Shown: positions 15,265 to 25,248 of the stretch, one piece after another | Numbering within the stretch: position 1 is the stretch's first letter | Layout: every line of letters starts with the position of its first letter | Made by a program: the position numbers and the translations under genes | Notes under the pieces: generated by a model | Database searches by the model: none | Seen by the model: the letters and a program-made list of their open reading frames with translations, nothing else | Told to the model about the DNA's origin: nothing | From: Gammaproteobacteria bacterium | GTDB taxonomy: Bacteria > Pseudomonadota > Gammaproteobacteria > Beggiatoales > Beggiatoaceae | Reading direction: 5' to 3' | Assembly: GCA_003645255.1 (NCBI GenBank) | Contig: QNES01000029.1 | Span: 1-32,246 of the forward strand | DNA: 32,246 nucleotides

Positions 15265-15834
15265 GTGAATCAAAAAGTGAATGAAAAAGTGAATGAAAAA
15301 GTGAATGAAAAAGTGAATGATAAGGAAGAAAAGGTGCTATACGATTCTGCACCTTCCATGATTCGTAACCGCCCTTTTTTGTATATTTTTTCGGTGGGAG
15401 CGGCGGTTGTGGGGAGCATTGGATTGATAATTTTGCTTAGTTCCGATAGGGAAAAAATTGAACCTCTTTGGTTCTTCCTTTATAGTATGGCGACGATTAT
15501 GGGGGCGGTTGGTATAGTGACTTTGTTCTTTTGGTGGCTAAAAGTCATTAATACTAGACTCACAGTGACGAACGAAAGAGTCAGGCTTAGAGCTGGTATT
15601 CTTTCTAAGAGGATACTGGAAGTCTTTTTGTCTGATATCCGCAGTGTTGAAATAAACCAGGGGCTTATGCAACGAATTTTTGGTACTGGCTGTTTGGATG
15701 TTGCCAGCGCTGGAAGTGCTGAGTCTGAAATTAAAATTGACGGAATACCCAATGCATACAGTGTAAAAGCCATTATAGATGAACATCGTCGTAGAGATCG
15801 AACTGAGGTAGTTGGTAAAGTTACTGATGATTAA
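15265..15834 (+). CDS. PH domain (DUF304/bPH2) membrane protein
   Basis: A 189-residue protein with two transmembrane helices (about 38-58 and 70-92), then a bacterial PH domain: RLTVTNERVRLRAGILSK, LEVFLSDIRSVEINQGLMQR, FGTGCLDVASAGSAESEI. This is the YdbS/YdbT-like family; its function is not well known. The cytoplasmic N-terminus is a run of VNEK units coded by a 12-bp tandem repeat (GTGAATGAAAAA, three exact copies plus variants), each containing an in-frame GTG. I use the first GTG at 15265 because AAAGGTG lies upstream; the other GTG codons could also start translation. Transcribed alone, between two hairpins. Confidence 0.85.
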   Translation: MNQKVNEKVNEKVNEKVNDKEEKVLYDSAPSMIRNRPFLYIFSVGAAVVGSIGLIILLSSDREKIEPLWFFLYSMATIMGAVGIVTLFFWWLKVINTRLTVTNERVRLRAGILSKRILEVFLSDIRSVEINQGLMQRIFGTGCLDVASAGSAESEIKIDGIPNAYSVKAIIDEHRRRDRTEVVGKVTDD

Positions 15835-15919: not shown

Positions 15920-18736
15920 CTAAGTCAATAAATGACGCACTTTTTGGTTGGTATTTTTCAGTTTCAATCTCCCCGTTTTTTCTTGTTCAATATATAGCAA
16001 GCACGCTTTCAACATATCATGCTCTAATGCAAGTAATTGTGAATAATAACGATTTTGATCTATTTTTAAATATTCGTTAAATAGCACTAGGTAAATACGA
16101 CGGATACCTTTAAGATCACTCACACGTTCATCAAAGTATTTAAGTACTTGACTGCTTAGACATTTTTCTCTAGCATTAGACAATACTTCTAAAGCATTAC
16201 CTTGATTTGCACGACTTAATGATAGTAAGCCAAGACTCACTCTTTGATAAAATTCTATATTTTGTTCGGAGGCAAACGTGATAATAGTGAGCACATGATG
16301 CAGATAGTCTTCTGCAATTTCTTGCAATATTTTGGCGATTAAATCGTCTGCTTCGCTACTATATTCATTCAATTCGTGCAATTTTAACAAACCATTTACT
16401 TGTACGAATTTTTTAAATGCTTCTATCGCACCTTGTTGCAAGTGTTGAAGTTGATTCTCATCAAGTTTAGGATATATAAGCGACAGTATTTCAAACCGTT
16501 GTTGTTCTGATATTTTTTTGACAAACAGATGGTCAACGAGTATTTTTTTGCATACCTTCAAATTCAGGCGCAATAGTTCTTTGCTTTCTGTTACTACAGT
16601 TCGATCTCTTTCACCCAAGATTTCAATAACGGGTTCCCAATCTTCTAAAGGCTTACATTCTTTGAGTGCCCTTAGAGTGATAATTTTAATTTCCTTATCG
16701 GGTAATTTCAGAGCTTTAATAAGACAATACTTTTGAGCTTCTAGCAGTTCACCTTCAAGCATACAAATAAATGCTGTGAATGCTGCTACACGCACCTCAG
16801 ATTTTTTATGCTCGAAGTAAGGTTTAACAATGTCACTATAGTGGGCTTGATGTAATTCTCCCAATGCATATAAGTAAAGTTCCGTATCTCGTAATTTAGA
16901 ATCCTTAATACGTGCTATAATTTTATTTTCAATCATGTATTTACGTGAGTATTTTGGATGAGCATGTAAACATAAGCAGGCTTCAACAAATACTAACGGT
17001 GATGGGTGTATCAATAATTTTTCTATGGTGTCATTTAAGTTTACACTTTGGAATTGAGCCAGTTCTTTTAGAATAAGGGGTAGTACTTTTGCCTCTTTTT
17101 CGGTTTGTAATGCTTCTACCAAATAGGTTTGATTATCTTGAGTTTGCGGTAACGCTGCTAAAGTATTAATACAATGTTTTTTAACTTGAAAAACTTGAGT
17201 TCTCAATAGCAAATTACCTACTTGGTTTACAAATTCATTCATTCTCAAGACGCGAATCATTTCCAATACGACAGTGACTTGGTATGGATCGGTGCTATTC
17301 AATTTTTGCTGTATCATTTGTTTGAGGCTATTGCTTGGCTTGCCACTTATTTTTTGAGGTTCAAATAATTTACGGTTGAGTGAGTTAAACATATCTATGT
17401 CATAAGCTACCCATTGCGGAAAGGCGACAATAATCCCCAATAATGATACGATGATTACAATTAATGGTAATAAATATTGAATTTTTTCTTTTGATACCAG
17501 CAAGGTTAATCCAGGTATGCCTGGTTCTGTTATCAAAATTAATAATCCCCCTGCAATAAAAGTTGATAGTGGAAATACAATGCCATTTAGAAATGCTTTA
17601 TGGCTTCCCCAAAAATTGGGTTCTATGGCATTAAACAGCAAATTATTGGCAGGGGTACGTAATGCCCAACGCATTTCTTGATTAATAAATTGAGTCGCTA
17701 TGCCTAATATGAGCATGATGCTCATCGTGCTATCTTGGATATGCCCTAAGCTTTTAGCATAAAAATAGATAAACAATGCGAGTGCTACCAGGGTTGAGAA
17801 TATCGGATATAGCATATTACTGGCACCAACCCCCATTCTTATGACAACACGCGATGTGATAAATAATTGAATAAATAGCCAAGCCAGATTAGCAAAGATT
17901 TCATAGAAGGCAAAAAATGCGGTTCGTTCTGTCGTATCTTCAAAAATTTCAAAATAAATTAGGGTTTGATAGTGATATTCTAATAATTTGTTACCTATAA
18001 CAAAAAGGATTAAACCTAGAGACATAAATATCATTAACTTAGATGCAGTGACGTATTTAAAGGCTGCTATCATTTCGTTTATTGGATTTTTATTGCCTCG
18101 AAATTGGGGATCGGTAGTACGTACTGGTGTTAAACGTGTCTTAATGATTCGCAATAGCAAAAATGCCCCCAAGCAAGCACCGCTTAATATCCCAATGAGT
18201 TGTTGTGGCTGAAATTGATAAAGCTTTAATAAGACGAATAGAGTCGTTCCGCCTAAGATTCCTCCAATAGGGAATCCTGCATTGATTATTGGAGTGACGC
18301 GCTTGACTTGAATTGCCGTAAAATAAGATGCCACTATACTGCTTGAATGTATAGAAATCAGTATGAAAAAAAAGGAAAAGCCGACAAAGAAAAATCCATA
18401 CACCCATTTTTGCTGTGCCCACCAAAAAAATAAAGCTTGTACAATGATTGAAAATATGGCTGTTGACATTAGGAAAAATTTAAATATATTGATGCCACTG
18501 AATTTTTTCGTATAGTGAGCATATAGTATGAAGCCTATCATTACCGTTAAATCTATAAGGATGAACATGTGAGGTAGTTTGTCACCCCCTACTTTTTCTA
18601 CCAGTAATGCCATACTAATACTCCTGGCAAAACTGGCTCCGAAGGAGAACACCAATAATACCAAAAATAAATATGATACTCCCTCCCATTCATTGGGTTT
18701 GATGGATAATAATTTGCCAAGGAGATGTGCTTTCAT
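15920..18736 (-). CDS. NTT/MFS-like transporter with HEAT-repeat tail
   Basis: A 938-residue inner-membrane protein of two halves. Residues 1 to about 460 hold about twelve hydrophobic helices with the layout of nucleotide-transporter (NTT/TlcA-like) or MFS proteins; the first helices, FLVLLVFSFGASFARSISMA and LVEKVGGDKLPHMFILIDL, resemble NTT N-termini. Residues about 470-900 are all-alpha with repeated 35-40-residue units typical of HEAT repeats (for example PSPLVFVEACLCLHAH, KSEVRVAAFTAFICMLEG, PDKEIKIITLRALKECKP). Substrate unknown: the fold does not prove nucleotide transport. The ATG lies 8 bp after the stop of the cNMP-binding gene, so the two form an operon. Confidence 0.75.
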   Translation of the reverse strand: MKAHLLGKLLSIKPNEWEGVSYLFLVLLVFSFGASFARSISMALLVEKVGGDKLPHMFILIDLTVMIGFILYAHYTKKFSGINIFKFFLMSTAIFSIIVQALFFWWAQQKWVYGFFFVGFSFFFILISIHSSSIVASYFTAIQVKRVTPIINAGFPIGGILGGTTLFVLLKLYQFQPQQLIGILSGACLGAFLLLRIIKTRLTPVRTTDPQFRGNKNPINEMIAAFKYVTASKLMIFMSLGLILFVIGNKLLEYHYQTLIYFEIFEDTTERTAFFAFYEIFANLAWLFIQLFITSRVVIRMGVGASNMLYPIFSTLVALALFIYFYAKSLGHIQDSTMSIMLILGIATQFINQEMRWALRTPANNLLFNAIEPNFWGSHKAFLNGIVFPLSTFIAGGLLILITEPGIPGLTLLVSKEKIQYLLPLIVIIVSLLGIIVAFPQWVAYDIDMFNSLNRKLFEPQKISGKPSNSLKQMIQQKLNSTDPYQVTVVLEMIRVLRMNEFVNQVGNLLLRTQVFQVKKHCINTLAALPQTQDNQTYLVEALQTEKEAKVLPLILKELAQFQSVNLNDTIEKLLIHPSPLVFVEACLCLHAHPKYSRKYMIENKIIARIKDSKLRDTELYLYALGELHQAHYSDIVKPYFEHKKSEVRVAAFTAFICMLEGELLEAQKYCLIKALKLPDKEIKIITLRALKECKPLEDWEPVIEILGERDRTVVTESKELLRLNLKVCKKILVDHLFVKKISEQQRFEILSLIYPKLDENQLQHLQQGAIEAFKKFVQVNGLLKLHELNEYSSEADDLIAKILQEIAEDYLHHVLTIITFASEQNIEFYQRVSLGLLSLSRANQGNALEVLSNAREKCLSSQVLKYFDERVSDLKGIRRIYLVLFNEYLKIDQNRYYSQLLALEHDMLKACLLYIEQEKTGRLKLKNTNQKVRHLLT

Positions 18737-18744
18737 AATAATTT

Positions 18745-19224
18745 TTAAGTTTTGTTATTAAGTACCATGCCGCGCATACGACTAATTAACATTTTGATAA
18801 ATCCAAAGGCTATCGCCGGATATTCGTGCGCTAATTGTTCCATATCATTGCGTTCAATGACTAAAAATGTGCATCTGTCACGGCAGCGAGCCGTTGCAGT
18901 TCGAGTTTCTGCATCAAACAATGATAATTCCCCTAGAAATTCATTTTCTTTCAATGTTGCAAGGTGCTTTTCTGTGCTATCCTTACTTTTTCTAAAAATC
19001 ATGACTTCACCTGATACAATAATAAACAACCTATCACCAATATCACCTTCATAAAATAAGATGTGTCCATCTTCATAGATTTCTTCACTGGCAATCGTTG
19101 ATATCATGTGGATATCTTCCGTTTTTAAGGTGGAAAATAGGGAGACTTTATTTAGTACAATGATTTTTTCCAGCGGAATCATCTCACCTGCGTCATAATG
19201 TAGATTCATAATTCCAGCAAACAT
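18745..19224 (-). CDS. Stand-alone cyclic-nucleotide-binding protein
   Basis: A 159-residue protein made of a single cNMP-binding domain without a DNA-binding domain. The beta-roll runs over about residues 28-125, with ILFYEGDIGDRLFIIVSGEV and the phosphate-binding cassette FLGELSLFDAETRTATAR, which keeps the key E99 and R108-T109-A110. It could therefore bind cAMP or cGMP. Helices follow to the C-terminus. The start is either the ATG at 19224 (no clear Shine-Dalgarno) or the ATG at 19209 (GGA just upstream). It is the first gene of an operon with the NTT-HEAT protein and probably regulates it; that is an inference from context. Confidence 0.85.
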   Translation of the reverse strand: MFAGIMNLHYDAGEMIPLEKIIVLNKVSLFSTLKTEDIHMISTIASEEIYEDGHILFYEGDIGDRLFIIVSGEVMIFRKSKDSTEKHLATLKENEFLGELSLFDAETRTATARCRDRCTFLVIERNDMEQLAHEYPAIAFGFIKMLISRMRGMVLNNKT

Positions 19225-19877: not shown

Positions 19878-20387
19878 ATGCTTCATTTATTTTTTAAAGT
19901 TAAGGGCTTTACGCTCATAGAAATCATGGTTGTCATGATCATTATCAGTGTCATTTTAACTTTTATGACACTTTCTATTGGTGACGGTGGTTTAGCACAA
20001 AAATTGAAACAAGAAGCACAACGCTTCGCTTCGTTATTGACGATGGCAAGTCAAGAAGCAATTATGCAATCTAAAGAAATGGGGGTTTCTTTTGAAATTG
20101 ATGGTTATCATTTTTATGTATTGCAAGAACAACAATGGCAAGCATCGCAGGATGAAATTTTTCGCCCCCGCAGGCTTCCACCAGGAATAGAGTCAGAACT
20201 CTACTTAGAAGGCGAGTCTATCGTTTTAAACAATATGGAAAAAAATGCACCGCAATTATTATTACTTTCCAGCGGCGAATTAACCCCGTTTAAAGTTATA
20301 TTCAAATATGAATCTGAAGGGCTGCATTATCAGCTAATTGGAACAGCTACAGGAAAAATGAGTCTTCAACAATATGAGTCATTTTAA
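19878..20387 (+). CDS. gspH: Type II secretion minor pseudopilin GspH
   Basis: A 169-residue pseudopilin of the periplasmic type II secretion pseudopilus. It has a 10-residue basic leader ending in G, the prepilin peptidase site G|FTLIE, the hydrophobic helix IMVVMIIISVILTFMTLSIG with E at +5, and a GspH-type globular domain (RFASLLTMASQEAIMQSKEM, LPPGIESELYLEGE, LLLLSSGELTPFKV). The ATG has no obvious Shine-Dalgarno. The stop overlaps gspI by 14 bp. Another type IV pilin-like role is possible, but the gspI partner supports T2SS. Confidence 0.88.
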   Translation: MLHLFFKVKGFTLIEIMVVMIIISVILTFMTLSIGDGGLAQKLKQEAQRFASLLTMASQEAIMQSKEMGVSFEIDGYHFYVLQEQQWQASQDEIFRPRRLPPGIESELYLEGESIVLNNMEKNAPQLLLLSSGELTPFKVIFKYESEGLHYQLIGTATGKMSLQQYESF

Positions 20388-20751
20388 AAAACAAGGTTTT
20401 ACACTTTTAGAAGTGCTGGTTGCCTTAGCTGTTCTTGCTATTGGGCTGGCTGCGGTGATTAAAGTCAGCATGGAAAATGCGGAAAATACGCGCTATTTAC
20501 GTGATAAAAGCATAGCGCATTGGGTTGCCATGAATGTGTTGACAAAAATTCAAGTACGCGAAGAATGGTCAACAGGCAAAGGGGTAGCTATAATGGCAGA
20601 GCGTGAATGGTATTGGCTTTTGAAAGTTTCAGAAACCGTAGATGATGAATTACGCCGTTTAGAGGTACAAGTTTATTACCATTCTAAGGATGAAGAGCCT
20701 ATAGCAATATTAGTCGGATTTGTGGGTGCGCCAAAGTCGTATTCAAGATAA
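20374..20751 (+). CDS. gspI: Type II secretion minor pseudopilin GspI
   Basis: A 125-residue pseudopilin with the leader MSHFKKQG, cleavage site G|FTLLE, helix VLVALAVLAIGLAAVIKVS, and the family segment ENTRYLRDKSIAHWVAMNVL followed by EWYWLLKVSETVDDELRRLE. With GspJ and GspK it would form the tip of the pseudopilus; neither gene follows here, and a hairpin comes directly after. Translation is probably coupled to gspH through the 14-bp overlap. Confidence 0.9.
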   Translation: MSHFKKQGFTLLEVLVALAVLAIGLAAVIKVSMENAENTRYLRDKSIAHWVAMNVLTKIQVREEWSTGKGVAIMAEREWYWLLKVSETVDDELRRLEVQVYYHSKDEEPIAILVGFVGAPKSYSR

Positions 20752-20802: not shown

Positions 20803-23800
20803 TCAAATGTTATAACAATCTAACAAATCATGCAATTTATGACGCACGGCTATTTCACCATAGTGCTTTTCTATATAATCCCTACCTTGACGAGAGAGTT
20901 TTTCCCATAATACATTTTCAGTGTATAAACGACAAACGGCTTCTGCAAAACGCGCCGGTTCATCGGCAATCAAAGCCGTTTCTGCCTCCTTCAGTCCCAT
21001 GCCCTCTGCACCGATAGTTGTCGTGACAACGGGTAATCCTAAAGATAAAGCTTGCCCCAATTTGCCTTTCATACCGGCACCATAACGTAAGTAGGAGACA
21101 AAAACACGCCGTTTAGCAAATTCGGGTTTGACTTGATCTACCCAGCCCACTATTTTGATCGTTTCGCTTGCTAACGCTTTCATTTTTGCTGTCATATAAC
21201 TACCAATCAGGTATAAACAAACATTTGGTAATTGGGCGTGAATTTTTGGCAAGACGTTTTCAACAAAATAATACACCGCATCTTGATTCGGTTGGTGATT
21301 ATAGTTGCCAATGAAGACTAAGCCTTCTCGTTGTTCAAAATGGTTATCCGACTGCGGTTGCTGTTGGTGAATATTGGGTAGTACAGAAAAGGCTAAGTTG
21401 GGTAATTCCTTTTGTAAGTGATAACCGTCGTCTTCTGTGACTGTCATGACGCGATTGGCTAGTAAACAATTAGCGAGTTCTTGACGTTTTGTGTCTTGGG
21501 CTTTTGCTAACAGTTTAGAATCGTTTTCAATTTCCGCTTGGCGTTGTTCACGGATATAGTGGATATCCACCGTGTCATAAAAAATCACCGTTTTAGGGGA
21601 TAATAAACGCACAAAAGGTATATAACGTTGCCCGATATCTACTCGACAAATCAGGGCAAAATCAAATTGCCGGTTCGCCATCACATCTGCAATACGGTAA
21701 TTCCCATGAAAGACTTCAATACCCAAAGCTTCAAGGGGATGACGATACTTAAATTGACTATCCAAGTTATCTGGAAAAAACGTGATTCGATAACCTAAAG
21801 ATACCCATAATTTCAATAGTGTATACAGTCGCAGGGAGCCAGAATCTTCGTCATACATGGGTAAAGTGGCATCAATGACTAAAACAGTTGGTTGCCCAAG
21901 TGGATTTAAGGGCGTTTTCTGATGAGTCCTAACTGTTTTCTGGTTGGCTAGTTTTTCAGCCCAGCGTTGATAAAAATACTGACTGTCATGGTTATAATCT
22001 GATTTAACTAATTTTGGATAAGATTGACTATGCTCATAACAAAGTGCCGCTTCATAGATCGCTTCATATTGTTCCTTCAATTGCCAAATCATTTCCGTTA
22101 GTTGATACATCGGAATATGATAAGTAGCGATTTCGTTAATATCTAGTTGAGATAAGCAAGCCGATTTGATGATCACCAACTGACTACTCGCTGCTTCAAC
22201 GGTGCGTCGATAGGCATAATAGGGATGATCAGCCGGCGCACCGGCTAAGGGGGTTTCTAAAACACCGTCGCGCATTAATAATGCATAACCTGCTCGGATT
22301 TTGCTATCGGCATATTTTTCCATCGGTACCAATAAAGCAGCGTTAGGGCAATCCGTTATGATTTCTAAGGCACGTTCAATGATGTCCGGTTGAGGAGTCG
22401 CATTGAGATCGCAGCACCATATATATTTTTCCGTTTTGATTGATTTTAGCTGATTTTTCCCCCAGTCAAGCACAGTGGGTAAGTTGACTATAATTTGTGT
22501 TGTTTCTAAATGGCTTAATTGATATTGCTGACAATAGTGTTGTATGTCAGGATTCAATTGTCCACAAATAACGACTTTTCCCTGACTATTGGCTTGTTCT
22601 AGGGCTTCACCTAGTTTCCTTAAAAAGAGATGTAAGTCGAGAATAGGTGTCGATTCGGTAATGCCAAATAGCATGAAAATATGAATAGCTGATTGAGCTG
22701 CTAAAGGACTTGGCAAAGGTAAATCTAATAAGCTCTGTTGTAACCATTGAGGTAATCCGTTTATTTCTTCAATCCGTTGTACTCGATCTGGTACTAGATT
22801 ATCATCATTCTGCTGTTGAAGATAGGAGGGCATTTTAGGATGACACCATACTGCTACGCCCGAATTTTCATTGGCATCCGGTGAGTCTATTTCAATTTGA
22901 TAAGTTTTACCGGCAGAATCAGCTATTGGCTGAAAGCTGATAGGGTGAAAGCGATTATCAAATATGTTGAGGGCATCTAGCTCTATTTCACGCAGTGGCG
23001 TTTCCAATTCACGGATAATAATGCGCACCTGACAGGTATTGATGCGTAAACGGGTGCCAAAGAAAATATCGAAGCGGAAAAAATCATCCAAAGTACAATA
23101 TACTGTAAATACTAATATAGCACCGGGCTCAAGTAGAAAGGGCAGCGTTCCTAATTCCTTCACGTTTTCCATAAATTGTGGATTTTCTGGGCTGCCGGCA
23201 ACACTGATCAATGTTGGGTAAACGTCCGACAAAGGGTGTGGTATGTTGTTTCCTGTTTCCCACCCATCTACTTTTGATATCGGGAGTTGTTCATGTTTTC
23301 GCACCGCGCTTAACCCGATGCGATTGCCAATATCACGGCTACTTGAAATATAATTTTCCGTTTCAACGAATAATTTTTCGACGCTTTTGTCAATTGTTTG
23401 CACCGCATTGGCGTAGCGGCGGATTTGAGGCCAATGTGAAGCAGAAATGAGTTGAATTAAATCGGCTAACTGTTGGCGCAAGGATTGATAATTGGTTTGC
23501 AAAGGTTGAATGTGTGTTGACAAGTGATCTGAAAGCTGGCTCAATTGTTTTGCTTTATTTCGAGTCCATTCAAGGAGACGCTGATAATCATCAATAATAT
23601 TACCCGATGACGTGGCTAAGGCATAAGCGGCGGCGGGTGAGGATTGTATAATTTGCTCAATCGCGCTTTGATTCATGCCAACCGCTATTTGCTTGCTCAA
23701 TTCGTGCAAGTTATTTTGTAAAGATTGAATTTGTAGCTGTTGTTGTTGTGCCGTTTCCTGTGATTGGATATAGTTTTCTTCAAGTAGGGAATAAGTTGCC

Positions 23801-25248
23801 TGCATTTTTGCCTGTTTTTTGGCAATGTTTGATTCCAATAGTTGATACTTTGTTTTCCAATCCGATTGTAACTGGGCATGATCAGACTGCAATTGTTGAT
23901 ATTTGGCAGTCCAATCAGACTGTAATTTGGCTGATTCTTTACTGCATTCCAGTTGTAATTGTTGATATTTAGCGGTCCAATCGGATTGTAGTTGATTATA
24001 ATCGGATTGTAATTGTTGATAGTTAGCACTCCAATCAGACTGTAACTTGGCTGATTCTTTACGACTTTCCAATTGTAAGAGTTGATATTTTGCTATCCAA
24101 TCGGATTGTAACTGATGGTAATCTGACTGTAATTGTTCATATTTAGCGGTCCAATCTGACTGTAACTTGGCTGATTCTTTACGACTTTCTAATTGTAATT
24201 GTTGATATTTCGCGATCCAATCGGATTGTAGTTGATTATAATCGGATTGCAATTGTTGATATTTAGTACTCCAATCGGATTGTAATTGGGCAAATTCCGA
24301 TTGCATTTTTTCATACTGTTGTTGCAACTGTTGCTGTTGTTCCAAACATTGTTGGTGTTGTTCCAAACTTTGAGTGGTTTGATCTAATTGCGATTGCAAT
24401 GCTTGTTTTTCCACCCTGATATCTTGCATAATACCACGCCGTTCTTGGCTTATTCGCCAATATTCCGCCAAGTATTCTAATTGTTCTGGTTCAGATTGGG
24501 GCAGATGTTTTTGCAAAAAATGACGATAGGAGTCACGCCAGCGTTTTTGTACCATGCTTTGAGTCGTTTGAGTGCCTCCCCAAATCGCATATTCGGTGGT
24601 AATTCGATTAACATGATAGAAGGGTGTGTGTTTAGATAGGCGCAGTAAGACATCCCAATCTTCAAAAACATCAAAAGATTCGTCAAATCCTCCCACTTTA
24701 AGCCATAAAGTACGATCAATCAATAAATTAATTAGGGGAATATAGTTTTCATAACGTAGACGTTCAACATCATAAGCGTCGTTAAATTCACCAATCGGCT
24801 TTTCTTGCAGAATAACCTCATCTCCTAACATATCCCTTTTAAGCAAACGACACCCGGCATAAGCTACTTTGGTGTCAAAATATAGTATAACTTTTTCTAA
24901 GCGTTGCAAATGATCAGGTAAATAACGGTCATCATCATCTAAAAAACCGATGAAATCCATATTTGTAGCTTGCACCCCTTGATTGCCAGCGTGTGATCGT
25001 CCCTGATTAGTTGCATTATGAATGAGGTGAATATTAAGAGCCGAAAAATCATTTACCACGTCATCAATAGCAACGCCCCCATCATTAACAACTATGATTT
25101 CATCAGGCAATCGTTTTTGTTCTGCCAAACTTTGTAAAGAGCGGGTGAGCAGGTGAGGGCGGTTTTTTGTCCTGACAATAATAGCAATCCGCAGGGCAGT
25201 TAGCGGTTTACTATGGCGACGAATTTGAGTCGATAAATTAGGTTGCAT
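20803..25248 (-). CDS. Giant multi-domain glycosyltransferase
   Basis: A 1481-residue cytoplasmic protein. Residues 20-270: GT2 (GT-A) glycosyltransferase with IIVRTKNRPHLLTRSLQSL, VVNDGG, the metal-binding DDDD in GFLDDDDRYLP and FEDWDVLLRL. Residues about 275-600: Gln-rich coiled coil with a 40-residue tandem repeat. Residues about 680-805: beta-sandwich-like segment. Residues about 850-1075: a second, degenerate GT-A-like domain without a clear DxD. Residues about 1118-1480: GT-B (GT4-like) domain with VLPNIHQQQ, FIGNYNHQPN and GMKGKLGQALSLGLPVVTT. Likely builds surface or O-antigen-type polysaccharide; acceptor and donor unknown. A heptamer repeat lies just upstream of the ATG, which has no clear Shine-Dalgarno. 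Confidence 0.88.
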   Translation of the reverse strand: MQPNLSTQIRRHSKPLTALRIAIIVRTKNRPHLLTRSLQSLAEQKRLPDEIIVVNDGGVAIDDVVNDFSALNIHLIHNATNQGRSHAGNQGVQATNMDFIGFLDDDDRYLPDHLQRLEKVILYFDTKVAYAGCRLLKRDMLGDEVILQEKPIGEFNDAYDVERLRYENYIPLINLLIDRTLWLKVGGFDESFDVFEDWDVLLRLSKHTPFYHVNRITTEYAIWGGTQTTQSMVQKRWRDSYRHFLQKHLPQSEPEQLEYLAEYWRISQERRGIMQDIRVEKQALQSQLDQTTQSLEQHQQCLEQQQQLQQQYEKMQSEFAQLQSDWSTKYQQLQSDYNQLQSDWIAKYQQLQLESRKESAKLQSDWTAKYEQLQSDYHQLQSDWIAKYQLLQLESRKESAKLQSDWSANYQQLQSDYNQLQSDWTAKYQQLQLECSKESAKLQSDWTAKYQQLQSDHAQLQSDWKTKYQLLESNIAKKQAKMQATYSLLEENYIQSQETAQQQQLQIQSLQNNLHELSKQIAVGMNQSAIEQIIQSSPAAAYALATSSGNIIDDYQRLLEWTRNKAKQLSQLSDHLSTHIQPLQTNYQSLRQQLADLIQLISASHWPQIRRYANAVQTIDKSVEKLFVETENYISSSRDIGNRIGLSAVRKHEQLPISKVDGWETGNNIPHPLSDVYPTLISVAGSPENPQFMENVKELGTLPFLLEPGAILVFTVYCTLDDFFRFDIFFGTRLRINTCQVRIIIRELETPLREIELDALNIFDNRFHPISFQPIADSAGKTYQIEIDSPDANENSGVAVWCHPKMPSYLQQQNDDNLVPDRVQRIEEINGLPQWLQQSLLDLPLPSPLAAQSAIHIFMLFGITESTPILDLHLFLRKLGEALEQANSQGKVVICGQLNPDIQHYCQQYQLSHLETTQIIVNLPTVLDWGKNQLKSIKTEKYIWCCDLNATPQPDIIERALEIITDCPNAALLVPMEKYADSKIRAGYALLMRDGVLETPLAGAPADHPYYAYRRTVEAASSQLVIIKSACLSQLDINEIATYHIPMYQLTEMIWQLKEQYEAIYEAALCYEHSQSYPKLVKSDYNHDSQYFYQRWAEKLANQKTVRTHQKTPLNPLGQPTVLVIDATLPMYDEDSGSLRLYTLLKLWVSLGYRITFFPDNLDSQFKYRHPLEALGIEVFHGNYRIADVMANRQFDFALICRVDIGQRYIPFVRLLSPKTVIFYDTVDIHYIREQRQAEIENDSKLLAKAQDTKRQELANCLLANRVMTVTEDDGYHLQKELPNLAFSVLPNIHQQQPQSDNHFEQREGLVFIGNYNHQPNQDAVYYFVENVLPKIHAQLPNVCLYLIGSYMTAKMKALASETIKIVGWVDQVKPEFAKRRVFVSYLRYGAGMKGKLGQALSLGLPVVTTTIGAEGMGLKEAETALIADEPARFAEAVCRLYTENVLWEKLSRQGRDYIEKHYGEIAVRHKLHDLLDCYNI
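23806..24285 (-). repeat. Four 120-bp coding repeats (coiled coil)
   Basis: Residues 322-481 of the glycosyltransferase are four 40-residue units: LQSDWSTKYQQ, LQSDYNQ, LQSDWIAKYQQ, LQLESRKESAK and variants. Units 1-3 are nearly identical, the fourth is degenerating. The sub-blocks have lengths 11, 7, 11 and 11, each starting with LQ, i.e. a mix of hendecads and one heptad. Confidence 0.9.

Follow-up and report, generated by a model that had tools for sequence, protein, structure and literature searches.

The gene pair described here lies in a 32,246-nucleotide stretch of contig QNES01000029.1 from a gammaproteobacterium of the family Beggiatoaceae; we refer to this whole stretch as the window. 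On the minus strand, an upstream open reading frame (ORF) encodes a single-domain cyclic-nucleotide-binding protein, hereafter the sensor. After 8 bp it is followed by an ORF for a protein that joins a membrane half, related to the NTT/TLC carriers, to a C-terminal HEAT solenoid. We call the latter the NTT-HEAT protein, or the transporter. The features of the two genes are as follows.

15920-18736, minus strand: NTT-HEAT protein, 938 aa (ORF, with relatives aligned)
17357-18736, minus strand: membrane half of this protein, residues 1-460, NTT/TLC-related (hhalign to TLC proteins; PDB 9j3n, E 8.6e-5)
15923-17341, minus strand: HEAT/ARM solenoid, residues 466-938 (HEAT_2, AlphaFold model, Foldseek)
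18737-18744, minus strand: intergenic gap of 8 bp between the sensor gene and the transporter gene
18745-19224, minus strand: cyclic-nucleotide-binding protein with a single cyclic-nucleotide-binding domain (cNBD), ORF as listed (PF00027, 7.6e-23)
18886-18939, minus strand: complete phosphate-binding cassette FLGELSLFDAETRTATAR, with the Arg codon at 18901-18903

PF00027 is the sole Pfam family that the window sensor matches at E <= 1, and no helix-turn-helix or other DNA-binding domain appears at this threshold. Among solved structures, the sensor profile has relatives in domains of PKA, PKG and CRP. Across 33 aligned copies, conservation begins at an in-frame Met at residue 15 (MIPLEKIIVLN), so the true start is probably at 19182, which gives a gene of 18745-19182 and a protein of 145 aa. 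The cassette Gly and Glu are present in all 33 sensor copies, and the cassette Arg in 29 of them. Sensor alignment A3 covers 22 of the 33 sensors. By BLAST, the sensor is better conserved than its partner, with identities to the window copies of about 56-89% for the sensor and about 42-68% for the transporter.

In the window protein alone, HEAT_2 reaches an E-value of 0.0097 and stays under the Pfam cut-off. Over an alignment of 32 family proteins that includes the window protein, HEAT_2 is found at E <= 0.01 in every member, with a best value of 9.9e-11. The AlphaFold model, built with four sequences like our other models, gives the HEAT part from about residue 466 a pLDDT of about 60-88 in most blocks, with a weak segment at 822-862. 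Foldseek with this model returns importin-alpha and alphaRep solenoids, at low TM-scores normalised over the whole query.

Hydropathy gives 11 hydrophobic segments for the membrane half, and a low-confidence model places 12 long helices there. A profile of the 32 family proteins matches 9j3n, ‘ADP,ATP carrier protein 1’, with an E-value of 8.6e-5 over profile positions 8-361. It is the only membrane transporter in the set of 24 PDB sequences with E <= 1, from which the plant NTT chain 9j3j is absent. We then used hhalign with 23 NTT-HEAT membrane halves (alignment A4); nine come from the 33 family copies, and 14 from the 15 class loci, of which L112 (619 aa) was left out. Against a six-protein TLC profile, the 23-sequence profile scores a probability of 98.5% (E 3.2e-15, 416-419 columns), and against the six single TLC proteins 85.9-97.4%. 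Five single ordinary MFS proteins, taken from the six matches in the own genome, give at most 1.2% with the same profile. PF03219 itself does not match the window protein at E <= 1, nor any of 32 relatives at E <= 0.01; one outside relative reaches 16.7 bits, below the cut-off of 21. The own genome has no PF03219 match either, a result of little weight since the control genomes likewise lack one; class-wide, the family is found in 67 of 369 genomes. The NTT ancestry of the membrane half is well supported by profiles from the wider NTT-HEAT set, and the homology appears distant.

The sequence-only reading of this DNA had placed both ORFs and their 8-bp spacing where we find them, and had described a complete cassette, about twelve membrane helices and a HEAT half. 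All of these stand, the helix count being fair in view of the 11 hydropathy segments and 12 modelled helices. It named a membrane fold unrelated to NTT/MFS as the outcome that would speak against it, and hhalign instead supports NTT ancestry. Its word ‘channel’, on the other hand, does not fit an MFS-type carrier well.

A search of 57 relatives found the transporter in 38 at E <= 0.001, some of the matches being weak or partial. Within the own family of 36 genomes, 32 carry a near full-length transporter, with two copies in G013, and G014 has a transporter piece beside a run of Ns. No close relative of the transporter was found in three family genomes (G001, G007, G030), and none of the sensor either. 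Among the 33 copies from the 32 genomes, the sensor gene lies directly upstream on the same strand in 30, with gaps from -32 to 201 bp. The copy of G019 is counted in these 33 pairs and stands outside the 32-protein alignment (A2), while G014 enters no pair count. In G019 (L029:1480-4202) the transporter ORF is split into two overlapping frames, and the sensor is intact.

Comparing 12 of the 33 loci over 5 kb on either side revealed that the neighbours mostly differ. The only specific neighbour common to more than two of the 12 is a gene for a bacterial PH-domain protein, in four of them. An apparent ORF cluster over seven loci, variable in distance and orientation, looks like cross-matches between common domains. 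The pairing of sensor and transporter exceeds chance, and the gene order that the sequence-only reading proposed to examine in relatives is conserved.

Matches beyond the family are found in 42 of 369 genomes in the class search and in 82 of 398 in the phylum search, and many of them are HEAT-only or HEAT-less. From the match lists we chose 15 + 15 regions by long frames and best scores (L190 repeats L101). At 21 NTT-HEAT loci outside the family, a separate cNBD gene lies directly downstream in 11 and a cNBD is fused to the C-terminus in seven. The cNBD is thus downstream or C-terminal in 18 of 21 outside relatives, whereas it is upstream in the family. Two of the loci, L101 and L103, additionally have a CRP-type regulator upstream, that of L101 with HTH_Crp_2. 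No cNBD was seen within the 10-11 kb of any of eight HEAT-less NTT-like loci. The cNBD and the HEAT tail thus occur together, a cNBD being present at 18 of 21 NTT-HEAT loci and at none of the eight HEAT-less ones (Fisher p 3.8e-5, a descriptive value only, as the loci were hand-picked and are not independent).

A search for paralogues gave 12 further loci, and several of these proteins are fusions. Two cNBDs are fused in L195 (G006), L196 (G022), L197 (G027) and L198 (G033, at a contig end), and one in L202 (G017), L204 (G007), L205 (G010) and L206 (G015). No cNBD was found at L199 (partial), L200 and L201. The split pair is absent from G007, which has the fused form. Since a fused cNBD follows the HEAT part in related proteins, both outside the family and among same-family paralogues, we associate the sensor with the HEAT tail, and the same-family fusions support a sensor-HEAT contact. 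The proteins of L195, L196 and L197, of the same family and with a double cNBD, are about 1260 aa long. L203, from G039 of another family, has its separate cNBD upstream; we had considered this order a mark of the own family alone, and dropped the idea in view of L203.

Trees of 80 and 46 cNBDs left unsettled whether the upstream, downstream and fused sensors form a single lineage. A tree constrained to unite the family, downstream and fused sensors is rejected when L113 is present (p-AU 0.0009) and is not rejected when it is left out (p-AU 0.41). In the free tree, the family sensors are nearer to CRP-type regulators, with weak support (90/83). The 46-domain tree holds 13 of the 33 family sensors and 11 of the 25 outgroup domains. 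We do not claim a relocation of the sensor gene from these trees.

We propose that the two genes form one unit, a cyclic-nucleotide-regulated secondary carrier of the NTT family, and give this reading a probability of roughly 55%. The membrane half would be an MFS-type secondary carrier, and its cytoplasmic HEAT solenoid would serve as the docking surface for the cNMP-binding subunit. The ligand of the sensor would be a cyclic nucleotide, most likely cyclic AMP (cAMP) made by the many class III cyclases of the own genome. PF00211 cyclases give 20 matches in this genome, and at least one in 50 of the 57 relatives. Binding of the ligand may alter the placement of the sensor on the HEAT tail and thereby activate or inactivate the carrier. 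The carrier probably moves an anionic metabolite, and its substrate is unlikely to be ATP or ADP held by the canonical NTT lysines.

Several observations weigh against this proposal. The AlphaFold model of the membrane half is unusable, with block pLDDT values of 24-40 in the whole protein (mean 52) and 39 for the half alone, and we therefore argue the membrane fold from profiles. The family members alone score lower in hhalign, 81.6% against the TLC profile, and 84.5% to one single TLC protein with at most 18.7% to the other five. Outside the family, three of the 21 NTT-HEAT loci (L100, L112, L179) lack a cNBD over the stretch examined. Three of the 33 family pairs are apart, by about 53 kb in G010 and on different contigs in G005 and G027. 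Such separations are what one might expect if the two genes were neighbours by chance. We consider this extremely improbable, as 30 of 33 pairs stay adjacent while the surrounding genes mostly change, and the same parts occur as fusions.

The remaining point of this kind concerns the ligand. In four of the 33 sensors (G018, G024, G032, G035) the cassette Arg is replaced by His and the transporter is kept, which would suit a structural, ligand-independent subunit whose cNBD fold merely stabilises or places the HEAT tail. We regard such a role as quite unlikely, because the Arg is kept in 29 of 33 sensors and the Gly and Glu in all. Of the earlier proposal that the HEAT half docks the sensor, the association is supported by the fusions, and the docking itself is put forward here as a plausible step. 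Second-messenger gating, also proposed there, may apply to the pair, and sits less well with the four sensors that have lost the Arg.

In order to address the substrate, we compared the NTT-HEAT proteins with AtNTT1, in which K155, E245, E385 and K527 reportedly matter for transport and are conserved in a wide range of homologues (PMC4256464, PMC10654386). The K155E change abolishes the binding of both ADP and ATP, and K527E that of ATP (PMC3306366). The AtNTT1 residues were placed on the TLC proteins through an alignment of 9j3j, where a single offset of 84 fits all four, and transferred by hhalign. In the window protein they map as follows.

18563-18565, minus strand: F58 at the place of AtNTT1 K155, the ADP-binding lysine (hhalign mapping)
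18374-18376, minus strand: S121 at the place of AtNTT1 E245 (hhalign mapping)
17978-17980, minus strand: E253 at the place of AtNTT1 E385, conserved (Glu in all 32 family proteins)
17561-17563, minus strand: T392 at the place of AtNTT1 K527, the ATP-binding lysine (hhalign mapping)

Equivalents of K155, E245, E385 and K527 are kept in 0, 0, 32 and 0 of the 32 family proteins, and in 0, 11, 1 and 0 of 14 NTT-HEAT proteins outside the family. All four residues are present in the six TLC proteins. Both lysines are therefore missing from all 46 NTT-HEAT proteins checked. A second alignment by another route puts the TLC key residues in the same columns, and is unreliable at some sites in the most distant paralogues.

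Because these two nucleotide-binding lysines are absent in 46 of 46 proteins, ATP/ADP exchange should not be assumed, and the nucleotide transport raised by the sequence-only reading is not supported. The loss makes nucleotide transport less likely and is not decisive, because the microsporidian carriers ThNTT1 and ThNTT3, in which three of these four residues are missing, still move both ATP and GTP, and in the same account NTT substrates are not predictable from sequence (PMC4256464); this also tells against our view of the substrate. A genuine transporter of ATP/ADP, NAD or another nucleotide, tuned by cAMP as an energy signal in the manner suggested by Major et al. (2017), would fit the NTT ancestry and the E385 equivalent kept throughout the family. 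With both lysines absent from the NTT-HEAT proteins and all four residues kept in 6 of 6 TLC proteins, we find it rather unlikely.

The key AtNTT1 residues being largely missing, and no substrate being known, the membrane half might also be a receptor or an anchor, so that the unit would pass a signal through the HEAT tail and carry nothing. This we hold to be very doubtful. The homologues are carriers, and the membrane half has conserved charged residues throughout, as expected of a carrier, with seven invariant Arg or Lys across the 32 proteins. That the substrate of the proposed carrier is anionic is our guess from these seven positive charges. A wider reading, which we offer tentatively and regard as possible rather than probable, would make the NTT-HEAT clade a class of its own; the microsporidian carriers have lowered our confidence in it slightly. 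Its members would not be nucleotide exchangers, and would instead be second-messenger-gated secondary carriers for another anion, with a detachable sensor that docks on the HEAT tail and a sensor gene relocated more than once, to an upstream, downstream or fused position.

The gene pair is of a kind already in print. NTT-HEAT proteins were described by Major, Embley and Williams (2017; PMC5381601), who call them broadly conserved and uncharacterised. In their account, cNBD genes follow the NTT-HEAT genes at a distance of several nucleotides, NTT-HEAT-cNBD fusions occur, and a control of ATP uptake by cAMP is suggested as a possibility. The window pair has the same three parts, namely an N-terminal NTT-related domain, a C-terminal HEAT domain and a cNBD partner encoded by a neighbouring separate gene, and it invites the same idea of cAMP control. 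It differs in that the cNBD gene precedes the NTT-HEAT gene here and follows it there, and Beggiatoa is unnamed in their main text. Two fused cNBDs are reported there from oomycetes and Bacilli, and we find them in gammaproteobacteria. The view of the sequence-only reading that nucleotide transport is unusual in free-living bacteria is contradicted by the same paper. The term ‘NTT-HEAT’ also appears in a diatom review that cites it. We found no functional study of NTT-HEAT proteins in a literature search that left subscription journals mostly outside.

Among other known systems, the single-domain NTT/TLC ATP/ADP carriers (PF03219; AtNTT1, PDB 9j3j and 9j3n) share the distant homology of the membrane half and the E385 equivalent. 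They lack the HEAT tail and sensor partner seen here, and the family does not keep the K155, E245 and K527 equivalents. Measured against functional ATP/ADP carriers, the window protein thus falls short of the PF03219 cut-off and retains one of the four charged residues. SLC9C1 Na+/H+ exchangers (PMC6052114) and the cNBD proteins of the Na/H-exchanger, MscS and MMPL types likewise place a cNBD on a membrane transport module; in the window pair the cNBD forms a protein of its own, for which the HEAT solenoid is the likely adaptor. CRP/FNR regulators have the same cNBD fold and cassette, and differ from this sensor by their helix-turn-helix.

We also notice cNBDs on other membrane proteins in these genomes. 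In the own genome, L134:1585-5001 (G000:C4) holds a frame of at least 1139 aa in which a periplasmic-binding or receptor domain (Peripla_BP_6) and a mechanosensitive-channel domain are joined to a C-terminal cNBD, and other family genomes have cNBD matches in frames of similar length. An MscS-type channel of 481 aa with a C-terminal cNBD is encoded at L125:1688-3130 (own genome, G000:C123), and a Na/H-exchanger domain with a C-terminal cNBD at L127:135-2666 (G017). Near NTT-HEAT genes, Pfam identifies an MMPL-type exporter with a C-terminal cNBD at L104:2066-4810, and an equally long frame that bears a cNBD is found at L107:9304-12054.

In the window, a bPH_2 gene (15265-15834) is convergent with the transporter gene, a position kept in four of the 12 loci compared. 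Genes for GspH-like and type II secretion system protein I-like pseudopilins (19878-20751) are divergent from the sensor gene. Beyond them, a 1481-aa ORF (20803-25248) has a long near-repeat stretch rich in ‘QLQSDW’, and its ends are presumably those of a glycosyltransferase.

Our analysis adds to the published picture a conserved split form with an upstream sensor, together with fusions within the same family. It also shows that both lysines are absent from the proteins checked and that some sensors have lost the cassette Arg. In view of the residue result, NTT-HEAT proteins should be tested before they are annotated as ATP/ADP transporters. With its sensor and HEAT tail as separable pieces, the split form lends itself to a simple binding experiment. 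The wider family extends to Cyanobacteria, Chlamydiae and oomycetes; its cyanobacterial and chlamydial members are called uncharacterised by Major et al. (2017; PMC5381601). If our proposal is true, the pair would represent an uncommon kind of regulation, in which a free-standing cyclic-nucleotide sensor switches a secondary carrier by way of a HEAT adaptor.

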